DNA of 32,382 nucleotides. Origin: Acidobacteriota bacterium. GTDB taxonomy: Bacteria; Acidobacteriota; Terriglobia; Acidiferrales; UBA7541. The notes below the pieces were generated by a model. It searched no databases, was not told the origin of the DNA, and was given only the letters and a program-made list of their open reading frames with translations. Shown piece after piece: positions 12,207-21,829 of the stretch. The position numbers were made by a program, and so were the translations under genes. Position 1 is the stretch's first letter; every line of letters starts with the position of its first letter. The DNA lies in contig QHYE01000111.1 of NCBI GenBank assembly GCA_003224055.1, positions 1 to 32,382 of the forward strand. Reading direction: 5' to 3'.

Positions 12207-13457
12207 CTAGGAATCGGCGCCGTTGTGATCCGGCCCATCACGCAAAAGTGAGCCGCCGAATTGCACTTTGCTGAATCCGAAGCGATCGCGAAGCCGGTCC
12301 GCGGCACTGGTAAGTTTTTCCAGTCTTGCGCGGCGCTCCGCGTCGAGCAGATCCAGCTGCTCGTTGCCGTGCGTGAGGCCGCTGAGGCTTACGCCAAGCA
12401 GCCGGATTTTTCTGCGCGGATCGCGGTGCACGCGAAAGAGCTCCTGAAACACAGCGAAGATATCCGTGTCGAGACGCGTGGGTTCGCCGAGCGTCTTTGA
12501 TCGTGTATGCGTTTCGAAACCTGCGTAGCGAATGGTGAGTGTAAGTATCCGTGTGGCGAGGCCGGCTTCGCGGAGGCGCTTGCAGGCTTTCTGCGATAGA
12601 TGGCTGAGCATCGCGCCCAGCGCGTTGGAATCCTCCGTGTCTTCGCCGAACGTGTGATTATGCGAAATCGATTTCGGCTCCGCGTCAATCACGAATTCGT
12701 AGGAATCGCCGCCGCGGGCCTTGCGATACAGCGCCGTTCCCCATTGGCCGAAAATCGTTTCCAGTTTTTCCTGCGGAACAGCAGCAATCTGCTGCACGGT
12801 TTCGATGCCCATCGCCCGCAGCGCCCGCTCCGTCACTTCGCCGATGCCCGGGATCTTTCGAACGGGAAGCGGCGCAAGGAATCGCTGTTCGCTGCCCGCG
12901 GGCACCCAGACAAGCCCGCGCGGCTTGGCTTGGTCGGAAGCAACTTTGGCAACCAGGCGAGTCGTTGCCAGTCCTGCAGAACAGGGAAGCGCGGTCGTTT
13001 GCGTGATCGTTCTAAGCAATTTGTCCGCAGCGGCCAGCGGCGGTCCATGCAAGCGCTCGGTGCCGGAAAGGTCGAGATAGGCCTCGTCAATCGAAACCAT
13101 CTCCACGATCGGAGAAAATTTCGCGAGGATGGTGACGACGCGGTCGCTCCACTCTCCATATTTTTCGTGATGCCCATCAAGAAAAACCGCGTGCGGGCAA
13201 AGCCGTCCCGCCGTTCGCAGCGGCATCGCCGAATGAATCCCGTATTTGCGCGCTTCGTAACTCGCCGCGGAAACGACCCCGCGCTGGTCCGGCCGCCCGC
13301 CGACCACCACGGGCTTGCCGCGAAGCTCGGGCCGTTCCAGCAATTCCACGGAAACGAAAAACGCATCCATGTCCACGTGGAGTATGGACGATTGCGCGAG
13401 GGCCGACTGGTCCTCAAGAGGCCCATGCTTGGCTCGGAACCGTGCGAAGTCCGGCAT
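12207..13457 (-). CDS. dinB: DNA polymerase IV (Y-family translesion polymerase)
   Basis: DinB copies damaged DNA with low fidelity. The 416-residue protein shows the Y-family palm motifs HVDMDAFFVSVE near the N-terminus and SIDEAYLDLSGTERL near residue 125, the helix-hairpin-helix region (PGIGEVTERALRAMG), and the little-finger domain. QLDLLD in the C-terminal part resembles the family's sliding-clamp-binding motif. The frame opens at a TTG at 13493, but ATG at 13457 fits the family N-terminus better. It is 56 bp after the prmC stop and upstream of the phosphatase gene. No LexA-like box was recognised. Confidence 0.94.
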   Translation of the reverse strand: MPDFARFRAKHGPLEDQSALAQSSILHVDMDAFFVSVELLERPELRGKPVVVGGRPDQRGVVSAASYEARKYGIHSAMPLRTAGRLCPHAVFLDGHHEKYGEWSDRVVTILAKFSPIVEMVSIDEAYLDLSGTERLHGPPLAAADKLLRTITQTTALPCSAGLATTRLVAKVASDQAKPRGLVWVPAGSEQRFLAPLPVRKIPGIGEVTERALRAMGIETVQQIAAVPQEKLETIFGQWGTALYRKARGGDSYEFVIDAEPKSISHNHTFGEDTEDSNALGAMLSHLSQKACKRLREAGLATRILTLTIRYAGFETHTRSKTLGEPTRLDTDIFAVFQELFRVHRDPRRKIRLLGVSLSGLTHGNEQLDLLDAERRARLEKLTSAADRLRDRFGFSKVQFGGSLLRDGPDHNGADS

Positions 13458-13513
13458 GCCCCTTAGCCTACTCCGGACATCTGTCGGCCTCAACTTTTCC
13501 GGTTGATGGCCCG

Positions 13514-14464
13514 CTACAACCGCTCGGCGGCGATGACGCGGGGGATGCCGGCGAGGTCGTTGGTGGCGCCGACGTTGGTCCAGAGTGGTACATCGAGGAG
13601 CAGTTGGACAGCGGGCAGGCTGTTGTGGCCGAGTTCGAGTACGAGGATTCCACCGGGCTTCAGCTTGGCGCCAGCTTGCGCGATGAGCTCGGCGTAAAGT
13701 TCGTAACCTTCTTCGCCTCCGTAAAGCGCGATCTCCGGCTCGTGATCGCGGACTTCGCGCATCAGTGTTGAGGCTTCGCGGCGGCCGATGTAGGGCGGAT
13801 TGCTTACGATCAGGTCGAGGAAAAGTAACTGGTGCCTGGTGACTTGTGACTCGTGAGTGGCACCGGCCTCTACGACGGAAAGCGCGTCGAGTAAGTTGGA
13901 TTCGAGGAAATGGATTTGATCGGAGACGGAGTGGCGCGCGGCGTTGCGGCGGGCGACGGCGAGCGCGGCGCTCGAAATGTCCGTGGCGTAAATCCTTGCG
14001 CCGGGCAGCTCTTTTGCGAGGGCTACGGCAATGCAGCCGGAGCCGGTGCCAACGTCGGCGATTTGCAGGCCCTCGCCGCTGAATGTTTGCTTGTGGCCGG
14101 CGCGAATTTCGCGGACGGCGAGGCGGTCGAGCACGACTTCGATGACGTGCTCGGTTTCCGGGCGGGGAATCAAGACGTCCGGCGTGACTTCAAATTCGAG
14201 GCTCCAGAATTCTTGTTTGCCGGTGAGGTGTTGCGTAGGCTCGCCAGCGGCGCGGCGGGCGAGCAGGCTGGTAAAGAGATGTACCTCGGAATCGCGAATT
14301 ACTTCTTCAGGATGTGCATAGAGCCACGCGCGGTCGCGGCCGAGCGCGTGCATAAGGAGCAGCTCGGCCGCGAGGGTATGCGATGGAACGCCGGCGGCGC
14401 GCAACTGCGCGAAGGCTTCGCGCAGAGCGGTGCGGACGATGAGCGGCGCCGTCTGCGGCTTCAT
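13514..14464 (-). CDS. prmC: Release factor glutamine methyltransferase PrmC
   Basis: PrmC methylates the Gln of the GGQ motif in release factors, here presumably the product of prfA two genes upstream. The SAM-binding motif DVGTGSG is at 137-143 and the substrate Gln-binding NPPY at 222-225. ATG at 14464 is chosen because it overlaps the stop of the preceding gene in an ATGA arrangement, indicating translational coupling; a start at 14494 would overlap it by 34 bp. Unusual: about 15 extra residues before NPPY (THESQVTRHQ at 203-212) are encoded by a 7-bp tandem repeat at 13825-13859 (see findings). They fall in the loop before the NPPY strand, so the fold is probably kept. Confidence 0.94.
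   Translation of the reverse strand: MKPQTAPLIVRTALREAFAQLRAAGVPSHTLAAELLLMHALGRDRAWLYAHPEEVIRDSEVHLFTSLLARRAAGEPTQHLTGKQEFWSLEFEVTPDVLIPRPETEHVIEVVLDRLAVREIRAGHKQTFSGEGLQIADVGTGSGCIAVALAKELPGARIYATDISSAALAVARRNAARHSVSDQIHFLESNLLDALSVVEAGATHESQVTRHQLLFLDLIVSNPPYIGRREASTLMREVRDHEPEIALYGGEEGYELYAELIAQAGAKLKPGGILVLELGHNSLPAVQLLLDVPLWTNVGATNDLAGIPRVIAAERL
13825..13859. repeat. 7-bp tandem repeat inside prmC
   Basis: Five imperfect 7-bp units (35 bp), each beginning GT, with consensus GTGACTN on the plus strand. It is wholly inside prmC and is translated in frame. The same unit family occurs at 16147-16174, and a related one at 21869-21896. Confidence 0.7.
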
Positions 14465-15009
14465 CCGAAGAGTTTTTCCTTTTGACGGCCGCAAGCTTCG
14501 TGATAGCCCAAGGCTACACCGTTACCGGAATAAGCATAACCGCCGATGGCGAGGCCGCCGAACGCGCGATAGCCAATGGCACCGCCACCTAGTGCCCGCC
14601 AACCGATGGCCAGTCCGCCCAGCGCGAGGAAGCCGAGCGAGACGCCACCGATGGCGAAACCACCTACAGCCACTCCTCCCACTGCAACAACGCCGAAGGC
14701 AAGTCCGCCAATCGCAATCACGCCGCGAGGACGGCCGCCGATTGCAATAATAGCGACCGGGGCGGCCCCGGAAGCGAATACCGGGAGGCCGGCGACGCGC
14801 GAAGTAGATTCATAGGAACGCACGTTGTAAGTGGGCATCGCGCTACGCCCTGCCATCGGCACGATAACTAAGGCCGAGATCATGAAAACGAGGTACAAAA
14901 CCCAAAAGCGACGCGGGACAGGGCGAGTGTCGGCAGGACCCGAGGCTAAGCGTTCGCTCATGTCCCTCATCCAACCTGAACCAGGAGCGGAACCCGGACG
15001 AGTCAACAT
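14461..15009 (-). CDS. Membrane-anchored pentapeptide-repeat (GxxA-hydrophobic) protein
   Basis: I do not recognise a named family. The 182-residue protein has one membrane helix (about 35-51), a short linker, and then 13 consecutive pentapeptides (96-160) of the form G-x-x-A-hydrophobic: Gly is first in all 13 units, the fourth position is Ala in 12 and Ser in one, and the fifth is always hydrophobic or aromatic. A degenerate start of the array precedes it (86-95). The regular five-residue period suggests a beta-helix-like or solenoid structure, but it does not match the usual A(D/N)Lxx pentapeptide register. Start ATG at 15009 is supported by a perfect AAGGAGGTG Shine-Dalgarno sequence (complement of 15014-15022). 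Its stop overlaps the prmC start. It lies between prfA (21 bp) and prmC. Confidence 0.82.
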   Translation of the reverse strand: MLTRPGSAPGSGWMRDMSERLASGPADTRPVPRRFWVLYLVFMISALVIVPMAGRSAMPTYNVRSYESTSRVAGLPVFASGAAPVAIIAIGGRPRGVIAIGGLAFGVVAVGGVAVGGFAIGGVSLGFLALGGLAIGWRALGGGAIGYRAFGGLAIGGYAYSGNGVALGYHEACGRQKEKLFG

Positions 15010-15030
15010 GGGGCACCTCCTTGCTAAGGA

Positions 15031-16122
15031 TTATGCACCCGCGAGCTCCTGCTGGAGGCGCTCGGATTCATAGTGCGAGACGAGGCCGTCGACGAGCGGC
15101 GCGAGCTTTCCTTCCATCACGTCGGTGAGCTGGTGGAGCGTCAGGCCGATGCGATGGTCGGTCACGCGGTTCTGCGGAAAATTATAGGTGCGGATTTTTT
15201 CGGAGCGATCGCCGGTTTTGATCTGGCCGCGTCGTTCGACGGAGAGCGCGGCCTGCCGCTTCTCCTGTTCCTGCTCGTACAAGCGCGCGCGGAGAACGCG
15301 CATGGCCTTGGCGCGATTCTTGATCTGCGATTTTTCGTCCTGCTGCGAGACCACGAGGCCGCTCGGAATGTGCGTGATGCGCACGGCGGAATAGGTCGTG
15401 TTGACAGACTGGCCGCCCGGGCCGGAAGAACAAAACGTATCGACGCGCAAGTCTTTCGCTTCGATCTTGATATCGATTTCGTCCGCTTCGGGGAGAACCG
15501 CGACGGTCGCGGCGGAAGTATGGATGCGGCCCTGCGTTTCCGTGGCGGGAACGCGCTGGACGCGATGCACGCCGCTTTCATATTTCAGTTTGGAATACAC
15601 TTTTTGCCCTTGAATGGCGGCGACGACTTCTTTCAGGCCTCCGAGCGAAGACGGAGAGCTTTCGAGGACTTCAACTTTCCAGCCCTGCGTTTCCGCGTAG
15701 CGCGAGTACATGCGAAAAAGTTCCGCGGCAAAGAGGGCGGCTTCATCGCCGCCCGTGCCCGCGCGGATTTCCAGGATGACGCTCTTTTCGTCGAGGGGAT
15801 CCCTTGGCAGAAGCAGAAGTTTCAATTCACGCTCGGCTTTTTCCTTGCGCGCCGTGAGCTCCCTCTCCTCGTCGTGTGCCATCTGTTTCATTTCAGCATC
15901 TTCCGCTTCCACGAACATCTGGTGCGCGCCGGCGAGATCCTTCTCGAGCTGTTTGTACTCGCGGTGCTTCTCGACGATTTCTTCCAGCTCGGCGTGCTGC
16001 TTCGCAACTTTCTGGTAGCGTGCGGAGTCGGAAGCCACTTCGGAAGTCGAGAGCTGCTGCGTCAGCTCGTCGTAGCGCGCGCCGAGCTGATCCAATTTTT
16101 CAGTTAACGTCAGTGTAGCCAT
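15031..16122 (-). CDS. prfA: Peptide chain release factor 1
   Basis: RF1 ends translation at UAA and UAG. The 363-residue protein carries the RF1 stop-codon tripeptide Pro192-Ala193-Thr194 (PAT, distinguishing it from RF2) and the catalytic GGQ loop with Gln238 ([10 protein letters not shown]). ATG at 16122 is chosen: AGAGGA lies about 6 bp upstream and the N-terminus then matches the family; the frame stays open to 16281, but that extension is encoded by intergenic repeats. It heads the minus-strand run that includes prmC, its modifying enzyme, with an unrelated repeat protein in between. Confidence 0.96.
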
Positions 16123-16146
16123 GGCAAATCCTCTTACGAACAAAGC

Positions 16147-16174
16147 GTGATTCGTGACTGGTGACTGGTGAAAG
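16147..16174. repeat. 7-bp tandem repeat upstream of prfA
   Basis: Four 7-bp units, two of them identical (GTGACTG), flanked by GTGATTC and GTGAAAG. It lies in the leader or promoter region of prfA, about 25 bp from the start codon. It shares its unit with the repeat inside prmC. Confidence 0.7.
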
Positions 16175-16184
16175 TCAGGAGCGG

Positions 16185-16202
16185 CGCTCCGGTACGGGAG
16201 CG
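16185..16202. repeat. Short palindrome CGCTCC-N6-GGAGCG
   Basis: A 6-bp inverted repeat surrounds GGTACG, just 11 bp beyond the 7-bp repeat array. It resembles the hairpin at 22367-22385 (both contain TACCGGAGCG-like or TACCGGAGC on the minus strand), suggesting a dispersed short element. It may alternatively be a regulatory hairpin of prfA. Confidence 0.4.
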
Positions 16203-16350
16203 AGGGAGAGTCAGCTAATAGAAAGCGGCGTACATCGGTTTGCTCTGCAGTAAGGATAGCGCCGAATTCCAAATCACGCAAATCGGAGTTCAGAATGGAC
16301 CAATTTCTCGTTAATACGATTTGCGTCCGGTTTGAGATACACTGCGGGTC

Positions 16351-16833
16351 GTGACCCTTCGCGAATTCTTTCTAGAGAATTTTGCCGGGGACCTGGAATA
16401 CCATCCGCGCCGCGCGCTGCTGTATCTGGGCCTTGCAGCGGCGGCCCTGTGCTATTGGATATTCGCTCCTCCCGAAGCCAAATTCACCACCATTCCTCTT
16501 GTCTTCGTACTAGGCAGTCTTATGCTTATTCTAAAGGGCATTTTCTTGCTCCGAGAATCGTCCGAGGGGATTGGCCGCACATCTTCAGATTTCGATGAGC
16601 TTTCCAATACTGTCAATCGTAAGAAACTGCCGTCCATCCCCAGCCAAGCTGCCCAGATTCTGCAAGATTTCGGAACGGGCCCACTCCTGCTCTGGACCAT
16701 TCTCAATATTGGCAAGGACATTGACGGCTCCTGGAATAATCCGCCACGCCTTGCCGTATTTTTGATCGGGGCCGTGCTCTTTTCGCTCGGCTGGCTGATT
16801 CGCCGCCTCACAACATCCTCCGCTGTACTCTAG
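16351..16833 (+). CDS. Small integral membrane protein, unknown function
   Basis: This 160-residue protein has three hydrophobic segments (about 25-42, 50-67 and 134-151) and a polar central region of about 60 residues. No catalytic motif is seen and I do not recognise the family. The start is GTG at 16351; the ribosome-binding site is weak. It is divergent from prfA, with the composite repeat region between them. Codon use and the clear membrane pattern support a real gene. Confidence 0.65.
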
Positions 16834-20239: not shown

Positions 20240-21829
20240 TTAGATGCGTCGGGTGACGTTGGGGAAGTCGAGCCAGACTTTGATGCCGCAGAAGTGGGAG
20301 CCTTCAGTGCAGATGGGGGTGGTGATGCCGGCGCGGATGTGGCAAGGCGGGCCAATGTAACGCGTGAGTTCTGGATGGATTTCGCGGAGCTGGGCGATTT
20401 CGTCCATTGAGGCTTGGTAGATTTCTTCCTGGGCGTTGAAGCAGGTGCGCATGGTCCATTTGTGAATGAGATGGAGGAGCGAGCCGGATTCGTAGAGGCG
20501 GATGGACTTGGCGTTGGGGAGGAGATAGAGGGCGATTTCCGCCGGCACGCCGCGATCGAGGAGTTGATTCTTTGCGTTCCAGGCGTCATGTACGGCGCGG
20601 TCGTAGACCTCTTTAGCGCGCGGATTGGCGGCGAGGAGCGCGGGCGTGATGTAGTCCGGATCGCGCGTGTCGGCGAGCGTGAGGAGCGGGCGCGAGCCGG
20701 GGACCATGCGATGGCGCTGGTCCTGGCTGTCGGCGGTGTGGCTGATCTTTTTCGCGAAAGTGTAGTTGGCGTGCTGGAGAGCGCGCATCATCGGGGCGTG
20801 GACGCCGACGTTGAGAGTTTCGAGGCGGTAGAGATTGCGTGCAGGGTTGAGCAGGCGGTCGATGGCTTCGGAGTCAGGGCATTGCGCGGCGGTGAGTCCG
20901 GCGACCGCGCGGTAGGATTCGGCGATGACGCGGACGGCATTCGGTGAATGATCGACGAGTTTTGAAGTTTTGCCGTTGAGCTGGGCGTCGAATTCGCGGG
21001 CGAAAGCTTCGCCAGCCGATGGCTCCGGCTGAACATTTTTCCACTCCGGCAGTTCATCCAGCGGTTCCGTACCAAAGCGATCGAAGAACTGAGCGTCCAT
21101 TTCCTTGACGTGCGCGACCATGGCGCCGATGACGGCGCGCGCCTCGCTCGGCGTGTCTGAGGCGGCGCACATGCGCCAGAGGCGATGGAGGACGATGCCC
21201 GAGAGGGTATGCACCATGGTAGTGAAGGCGGCGAGGGGTAGAACGTAGCGGGCGATTTCGATGGCGCGTTTTTCGGCGGAGCGTTCGATTTTCTGGAAGC
21301 GCTTGGGATGAGACATCGGGCCGATGTGCCAGATGTCGTTGAGAATGTTGCGTGTGTCACCGATCAAAAGTGAGGATAGTTCGCGATAGTAGTTCCAGGC
21401 GCGGGCGACGGCCCCTTCGTAGATTTCCTTGCATTTTTCATCGAAGAAAAGCGAGACGGGAGGCACGTACGCCTGGGCGCGATCGAGGCGGACATAACGC
21501 TGGCTTTGCTGCTCGGAATTGTAGAACGGATGCGCGTGAAGGAAGGACCACACAAATTGGCGGCTGACGTTTTCGAGGCCGAATTCGAAATGAGCGTGCT
21601 GGTAGACGGTATGGTGACCGCTATGGAACGTGGCGGCACCGATGTTGACGCGCTGCTTGTCGGTGATTTCTTCGGGGCCGATCAGGCGCGGGGCGTAACA
21701 GGTGCGGGCCGCGGCGATGGCGGAATCGAACGGATGCGAGAAGGCGTTCCGAAGCGTGACGCGGGGCGGGGCGGTTTCGACTAATTCGCCGGGCCGCGTG
21801 CTATCGAACATGCGGGATTGAGTAGCCAC
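20240..21829 (-). CDS. ThyX-like protein with two tandem flavin-dependent thymidylate synthase domains
   Basis: ThyX makes dTMP from dUMP with FAD and methylene-tetrahydrofolate. This 529-residue protein is twice the usual length and holds two ThyX-like halves. The N-terminal half keeps the second part of the ThyX signature (SEQQSQRY, 105-112) but has LHAH where RHR is expected. The C-terminal half keeps RHR (371-374 in QRHRMVPGSRP) and the typical end PPC-x-G-x-C-x-EG-x-CG. The active sites of ThyX lie between subunits, so the two halves may form a pseudodimer. Start is GTG at 21829 or ATG at 21811; neither has a clear ribosome-binding site. It might be a genuine dTMP synthase or a diverged relative. 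Confidence 0.85.
   Translation of the reverse strand: MATQSRMFDSTRPGELVETAPPRVTLRNAFSHPFDSAIAAARTCYAPRLIGPEEITDKQRVNIGAATFHSGHHTVYQHAHFEFGLENVSRQFVWSFLHAHPFYNSEQQSQRYVRLDRAQAYVPPVSLFFDEKCKEIYEGAVARAWNYYRELSSLLIGDTRNILNDIWHIGPMSHPKRFQKIERSAEKRAIEIARYVLPLAAFTTMVHTLSGIVLHRLWRMCAASDTPSEARAVIGAMVAHVKEMDAQFFDRFGTEPLDELPEWKNVQPEPSAGEAFAREFDAQLNGKTSKLVDHSPNAVRVIAESYRAVAGLTAAQCPDSEAIDRLLNPARNLYRLETLNVGVHAPMMRALQHANYTFAKKISHTADSQDQRHRMVPGSRPLLTLADTRDPDYITPALLAANPRAKEVYDRAVHDAWNAKNQLLDRGVPAEIALYLLPNAKSIRLYESGSLLHLIHKWTMRTCFNAQEEIYQASMDEIAQLREIHPELTRYIGPPCHIRAGITTPICTEGSHFCGIKVWLDFPNVTRRI

Follow-up and report, generated by a model that had tools for sequence, protein, structure and literature searches.

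The repeat gene and its locus

The window analysed here, a stretch of 32,382 nt on contig QHYE01000111.1 of an Acidobacteriota bacterium (assembly GCA_003224055.1), carries on its reverse strand a gene, named GRP here, that encodes a repeat protein and lies between the genes for release factor 1 (RF1; prfA) and the release factor glutamine methyltransferase (prmC). The original prediction had described a gene inserted between these two, with a strong ribosome-binding site of its own and an ATGA overlap with prmC, and the features collected in Table 1, including the Pfam assignments of both neighbours, agree with it in all three respects. A scan of positions 13400–16500 for sigma-70-like promoters returned no match (0.7 expected by chance), and a separate promoter is therefore not argued for GRP. 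Tandem Repeats Finder (TRF) gave no row at a score of 30 or more in positions 14400–15100, so that the pattern described below is kept at the level of the protein, and a recent tandem duplication of DNA is ruled out as the source of the array. GRP is present as a single copy in this genome, two weaker matches (E 0.03 and 0.4) containing internal stops.

Table 1. Features of GRP and its locus in the window.
Feature	Position	Strand	Basis or remark
prmC, release factor glutamine methyltransferase, downstream partner	13514..14464	-	Pfam PrmC_N E 2e-22 plus methyltransferase domain
GRP, open reading frame (ORF) of the repeat protein	14461..15009	-	182 aa; 9 further full-length copies at the same operon position; dN/dS by the Nei–Gojobori method (NG86)
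ATGA overlap, GRP stop with prmC start	14461..14464	-	sequence reading
Conserved C-terminal tail, GRP residues 161–182	14464..14529	-	family consensus AGNGVAYGYxEASGRQKEKLIG
13 units G-x-x-[AS]-φ, GRP residues 96–160	14530..14724	-	best read as decapeptides; one long strand segment in both AlphaFold2 (AF2) models
Pre-repeat motif Y-E-S...G-L-P-V, GRP residues 66–78	14776..14814	-	common to the wide domain family
Single membrane helix, GRP residues 35–53	14851..14907	-	Kyte–Doolittle 2.40 over 19 residues; AF2 helix 33–54
Shine–Dalgarno sequence AAGGAGGTG	15014..15022	-	4 nt before the GRP ATG
prfA, release factor 1, upstream partner	15031..16122	-	Pfam PCRF E 1.7e-76, RF-1 E 4.2e-42

A survey of 89 genomes of the family found matches to GRP at E 0.001 in 14, of which ten, counting that of the window, have a full-length copy. 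In all ten, GRP is flanked by prfA and prmC, the three genes sharing one strand, although contig ends cut prmC in locus L004 and leave prfA partial in L007, L009 and L010. The ratio of nonsynonymous to synonymous rates (dN/dS) estimated by NG86 is 0.04–0.13 in six closer pairs of GRPs and 0.17 in two more distant pairs, for which dS is near saturation, whereas the Yang–Nielsen method (YN00) gives 0.07–0.39 across the pairs, with a value for all but one of the 8. On the strength of these low ratios and of its constant position between prfA and prmC, the GRP ORF is a real gene under purifying selection.

A ten-residue unit masked by a five-residue period

GRP starts with a short charged segment, followed by a single hydrophobic helix, a YES...GLPV segment and the repeat array, and both ends of the protein are conserved in the family, the start lying near ML[TS]RPGS.PG..WM and the end near YAYAGNGVAYGY.EASGRQKEKL. 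The array consists of 13 strict units G-x-x-[AS]-[ILVFMY] without a break, whereas runs of at most 4 were reached in 20,000 shuffles of the whole of GRP and in as many (20,000) confined to the repeat region; the 13 uninterrupted units that had been proposed to follow one membrane helix are thus upheld. Within a unit, position 1 is Gly (some Ala), position 2 is Gly or bulky, position 3 is mostly Leu, Ile or Val, position 4 is Ala or Ser and position 5 is Val, Leu, Ile or Phe.

From unit to unit, position 2 alternates between a bulky residue and Gly or a polar residue. The size class at this position agrees between units at lag 2 with a concordance of 0.80 in the ten GRPs (shuffled mean 0.51) and of 0.73 in 21 other arrays (shuffled mean 0.48), and no shuffle of 500 was as high in either set; at lag 1 the concordance falls to 0.33 in the GRPs and 0.34 in the 21 others, lower than in any of 500 shuffles, a certainty that is overstated in each case because the ten orthologues are not independent and some of the other rows are near-copies. 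The 21 arrays are what remained of 29 non-GRP rows once the eight with no run of six units had been left uncounted. The repeat unit of GRP is thus ten residues long, and of the five-residue unit put forward in the original prediction the period stands, whereas the true unit is twice that length. The array is hydrophobic and nearly uncharged (mean Kyte–Doolittle value 1.42; two charged residues in 65), so that its outer faces are probably buried, whether by the membrane, by neighbours in an oligomer or by a partner.

Distribution, loss and possible recombination

Among the 36 genomes of the genus, several of which are incomplete drafts, GRP is present in nine (G000, G004, G006, G009, G010, G014, G015, G033 and G034). 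In the 27 members without GRP, prfA and prmC are adjacent in 21, prfA stands at a contig end in two and no match to prfA is found in four; the gap between prfA and prmC spans -4 to 172 nt in 35 regions, those among 40 fetched for which both ends were measured. The tenth full-length copy comes from a genome of another genus, G080 (locus L009 on contig C49), and is 98% identical to the GRP of G034. G080 has two matches to prfA, including a prfA–prmC pair of its own that does not contain GRP, and the contig with GRP is probably misbinned; this copy is kept outside the genus count, yet it forms a row in the trees. A phylum-wide prfA–repeat–prmC order, which the original prediction had put forward as a point to check, is not supported, full-length copies having been found in these nine genomes of one genus-level group and on one probably misbinned contig.

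Two of the gaps between prfA and prmC contain remnants of the gene. In G008 (L059) both ends of the protein are kept, as PRPGSEPGP...VALGYHEAGGSQKESLLG-stop, and the membrane helix and the repeats are gone, and in G007 (L058) a shorter scar reads KQEESLFG-stop. With z values of 4.7 and 4.4 against 60 shuffles each, these are the top two of the gaps scored, the next reaching 2.5. Since prfA and prmC adjoin directly in most relatives, two of which carry scars, GRP is lineage-restricted and dispensable, and it has been deleted more than once within the genus. Its loss in several relatives places it probably outside the translation machinery itself.

The presence of GRP requires seven state changes on a tree of prfA and prmC with 38 rows, compared with a mean of 8.9 for shuffled states (45 of 500 shuffles were as low), so that the pattern is only weakly clustered on the host tree. 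In approximately unbiased (AU) tests, the GRP data reject a clade of G014 and G006 (p-AU 0.0032), a grouping that has 100/100 support in the 38-row tree of prfA and prmC, and a clade of G009, G014 and G006 (p-AU 0.00018), whereas the host data fall short of rejecting G000 + G010 + G009 (p-AU 0.055); these values apply to clades that were chosen with the trees already in view, G006 and G014 sit on long branches, the prfA row of G014 is partial and misbinning is possible. Purely vertical descent of GRP is rejected by this conflict between the two trees, and besides loss of the gene the pattern therefore involves recombination at this site, deep paralogy or misbinning.

A selfish or neutral passenger, that is a repeat gene that recombined into a well expressed operon and then decayed, would leave state changes hardly below the chance number, a tree conflict and deletion scars, as are seen here. 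Purifying selection and the conserved ends of the protein speak against decay of this kind, and the constant site is better explained by descent with recombination than by fresh insertion, which makes the passenger a rather unlikely explanation, although no search aimed at mobile elements was made.

We consider it quite unlikely that GRP is a translational coupler, with the main purpose of driving prmC from a strong ribosome-binding site by way of the ATGA overlap. The aligned loci show GGAGG upstream of the ATG in all ten full-length copies, and the overlap is found in six of them (L001, L005, L006, L007, L010 and L012), as a coupler would have it, but prmC starts 8–9 nt past the GRP stop in L008, L009 and L011, and ATGA is also missing in L004. 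Moreover, prfA and prmC do without GRP in most relatives, and a mere leader would need no conserved protein of 182 residues under purifying selection. The claim that GRP sets the expression of prmC is not borne out, given the four copies that lack ATGA and the many relatives that lack the gene.

A wider family with a GLPL-decapeptide domain

Sequence comparison gives good support for placing GRP in a wider family that shares a bacterial repeat domain for which there is no name and which we call the GLPL-decapeptide domain. A profile search of the phylum matched at least 46 of 396 genomes, the window's own included and with at most eight candidates scored per genome, and a scan with GRP alone as the query found repeat matches in one Lachnospiraceae and one Planctomycetota metagenome-assembled genome (MAG). 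In an alignment of 38 copies, the domain reads Y-x-S...G-[LIM]-P-[LV], a variable loop, A-x-G-I-I-A-I-G and then the array. The alignment by hhalign of the GRPs with 27 non-orthologous copies has a probability of 99.75 and an E value of 2.2e-27, a score inflated by the repeats, and the pre-repeat motif was therefore tested by itself, with a 16-position model built from the 27 non-GRP rows and run against the 3671 ORFs of the loci. Judged by the best single stretch, this model chose the exact YES...GLP site in nine of the ten GRPs and placed seven of them above every unrelated ORF; by whole-sequence score, eight of the ten stood above all unrelated ORFs. As sequence evidence for kinship, the test is good for the GRP family and weak for the copy in the window alone.

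The other members, among them L021, L027/L029, L032/L040/L048 and L019, share with GRP the pre-repeat motif, the G-I-I-A-I-G junction and the ten-residue G-x-x-A-φ array. GRP differs from them by its N-terminal membrane helix, a shorter loop past GLPL, a conserved C-terminal tail of its own and the absence of an output domain, no Pfam family matching it at E 10. Pfam scans of 20 other domain proteins identified a Ser/Thr kinase in five (L027, L028, L029, L037 and L045), an extracytoplasmic function (ECF) sigma factor in three (L032, L040 and L048) and a sub-threshold zinc ribbon in two (L021 and L030), with nothing certain in ten. The protein of L019, from the Lachnospiraceae MAG, is fused to HTH_3, and that of L020 has a sub-threshold HAAS-like match and an adjoining PadR gene (PF03551, E 5e-25). 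In several fused members, the repeat domain is followed by a hydrophobic stretch and a basic tail. Neither prfA nor prmC was found within flanks of 1.5–4 kb at any of 36 non-orthologous loci with the repeat domain or similar repeats.

Three observations on individual loci are recorded here. A single protein of 969 residues at L040:379-3285 (+) has ECF sigma regions together with the repeat domain and Acyl_transf_3. The HTH_3 protein at L019:3623-4489 (+) has EVSGRQ past its repeats, near the EASGRQ tail of the window's family, which may be chance. The short proteins of L015, L016 and L049, in which a few GALAIG-like units lead into a polar tail of the pattern ELTV/ELRV..RL, apparently form a separate repeat family that was picked up by the search.

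Existing models account for little of the domain. GRP matched no family in Pfam, NCBIfam or PHROGs at E 10 and had no match by sequence in the PDB, and a profile of the domain retrieved just a tail fibre (E 0.24) and GliT (E 4) from the PDB sequences. Pfam matches in the repeat regions of the 38 copies are weak (GLTT in three, best E 0.002; Pentapeptide_2 in four, best E 0.23), in a scan whose HMMER filters let through few matches above E 0.1, and when 11 of the proteins were run against NCBIfam their repeats gave nothing at E <0.1. A tblastn search of plasmids with GRP and with the protein of L021 gave no match, a negative that carries no weight because of the low-complexity filter of BLAST. 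Searches of the open-licence literature for GRP, its domain, the letters of its motif or a membrane-embedded beta-solenoid turned up no paper with a title or abstract that describes it. The profile search for the repeat thus yields no significant Pfam or NCBIfam model, yet through its kinship to a wide, unnamed domain family GRP is no orphan.

Predicted fold and relation to known systems

The structure was predicted with AF2 from the ten orthologues (first model) and from the 38 domain rows (second model). The second model has a mean predicted local distance difference test score (pLDDT) of 82.8 and a predicted template modelling score (pTM) of 0.66, with a continuous strand over the array, the blocks of which score 85–93. 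The predicted fold of the array is a beta-solenoid, and the earlier suggestion of such a fold is upheld at the level of structure prediction. When the second model was compared with known structures by VIA-align, YadA-type heads came first (1p9h, Z 10.6, 105 residues aligned, root-mean-square deviation 6.6; 3s6l, Z 10.2), with phi29 gp12 below them (Z 6.5); for the first model a single row came back (Z 2.5). For repeats, a Z under about 13 may signal merely a common arrangement.

Membership of the classic pentapeptide-repeat family or of the YadA-head beta-helix family is distinctly improbable, although the five-residue period and the structural neighbours would fit it. With YadA-type heads GRP may share a parallel beta-roll, as its predicted model weakly suggests, and a VAIG-like motif, the SVAIG motif of these heads being similar in look to the GRP repeat (PMC2942831). 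The GRP family differs in having a ten-residue unit, no profile match (YadA_head is absent from the ten Pfam families matched at E 10 by any of the 38 copies) and no autotransporter anchor or stalk seen in the sequence. Pentapeptide repeat proteins form a right-handed quadrilateral beta-helix. GRP resembles them in its five-residue periodicity and in the one small residue per unit, but it has Gly first and Ala or Ser fourth, a ten-residue alternation and almost no polar residues, and the A(D/N)Lxx pattern is absent, as had been pointed out from the start; Pentapeptide_2, as given above, matches no more than four of the 38 copies.

Two other likenesses concern signalling systems. HAAS–PadR systems with 'pentapeptide repeat domains' are described in PMC11237479, and L020, with its HAAS-like N-terminus (sub-threshold), its PadR neighbour and this repeat domain, is likened to them by description only. 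The same paper presents the Toastrack domain of the PSP/Lia systems as beta-helical, membrane-proximal and regulator-linked, and as a proposed scaffold for sub-membrane signalling complexes (PMC11237479). The GRP repeat is of another kind, and Toastrack membership was rejected, neither GRP nor any of the 38 copies matching DUF2154, DUF4097 or DUF2807 at E 10. The beta-flower or Tubby-like families (PF21784–PF21786) were set aside for want of a Pfam match and for their other fold description, the beta-flower consisting of shallow antiparallel barrels (PMC10584680), and the Knotted Solenoid was set aside because its fold description differs.

Elsewhere in the window, an ORF of 529 residues at 20240-21829 (-) has two stretches that match Thy1 (ThyX, PF02511; whole-protein E 5.8e-51) and may represent a ThyX in tandem or duplicated form.

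A putative membrane-anchored scaffold or sensor module

We put the probability that GRP is a membrane-anchored scaffold or sensor module, using the prfA–prmC operon in one genus, at about 0.48, just short of an even chance. In this proposal, GRP would be translated and anchored in the inner membrane by its helix, with a short charged N-terminal tail ahead of it and the GLPL-decapeptide domain C-terminal to it. The domain would most likely fold compactly as a parallel beta-solenoid or beta-roll, each decapeptide making up half a coil or a whole one, and its nearly uncharged surface would pack on the membrane, on copies of itself or on a partner. Because the domain follows a kinase, a sigma factor, a zinc ribbon or a helix-turn-helix elsewhere, we infer that its general role may be membrane-proximal sensing or the clustering of a regulator, and GRP, which has no output domain, may serve by itself as a scaffold or be the partner of one, by analogy with what PMC11237479 proposes for Toastrack in the PSP/Lia systems.

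Several results weigh against this proposal. The first AF2 model reaches a pLDDT of 64.7 and a pTM of 0.48, with other models of that run down to 36.2, and the five models of the 38-row run span 82.8 to 62.0. Foldseek returned nothing at E <=0.001 for both models against the PDB and for the second against BFVD. AF2 yields confident yet unrealistic beta-solenoids from perfect repeats, according to PMC11795689, which reports lower confidence for such false solenoids with AlphaFold3 or ESMFold, and although the GRP array is imperfect this caution stands. The 27 domain copies were gathered by searches seeded with GRP, so that their similarity to it is partly selected, and in the motif-only test the window's GRP takes rank 40 with 7.1 bits, behind one unrelated ORF (9.1 bits), L010 takes rank 43 and L012 is missed. 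The two cues to topology also conflict. Lys and Arg in the N-terminus exceed those in the post-helix loop in nine of the ten GRPs, which weakly favours an N-terminus inside and repeats outside, whereas the fusion to cytosolic regulators elsewhere, with the trailing hydrophobic stretch and basic tail, suggests a domain that lines the inner face of the membrane or spans it.

A functional partnership with RF1 or PrmC, for instance in tethering release-factor modification to the membrane, is very improbable, for the strict position of all ten copies is outweighed by a patchy presence while both neighbours stay, which argues against a role in RF1 methylation, by the 36 unlinked loci and by the tree conflict over G014 and G006 (p-AU 0.0032). 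The analysis gave no sign that GRP takes part in RF1 methylation.

In conclusion, the insertion between prfA and prmC is a side story, a genus-level curiosity, and the value of GRP lies in its pointing to an unnamed, signalling-associated and almost uncharged decapeptide-repeat domain. The bolder reading, in which this domain would be a beta-solenoid of nearly uncharged decapeptides inserted into the inner membrane or lying within it, shared by kinases, sigma factors and other regulators of several phyla as a module for sensing the state of the membrane or for clustering, with GRP as its stand-alone anchored form, is in our judgement unlikely. The almost uncharged repeats also raise the structural question of whether a beta-solenoid could exist within the inner membrane or on its surface, and with its clear signature, no significant Pfam or NCBIfam repeat model in the scans and its fusions to regulators, the domain makes a good candidate for a membrane-proximal signalling module that is new to description.
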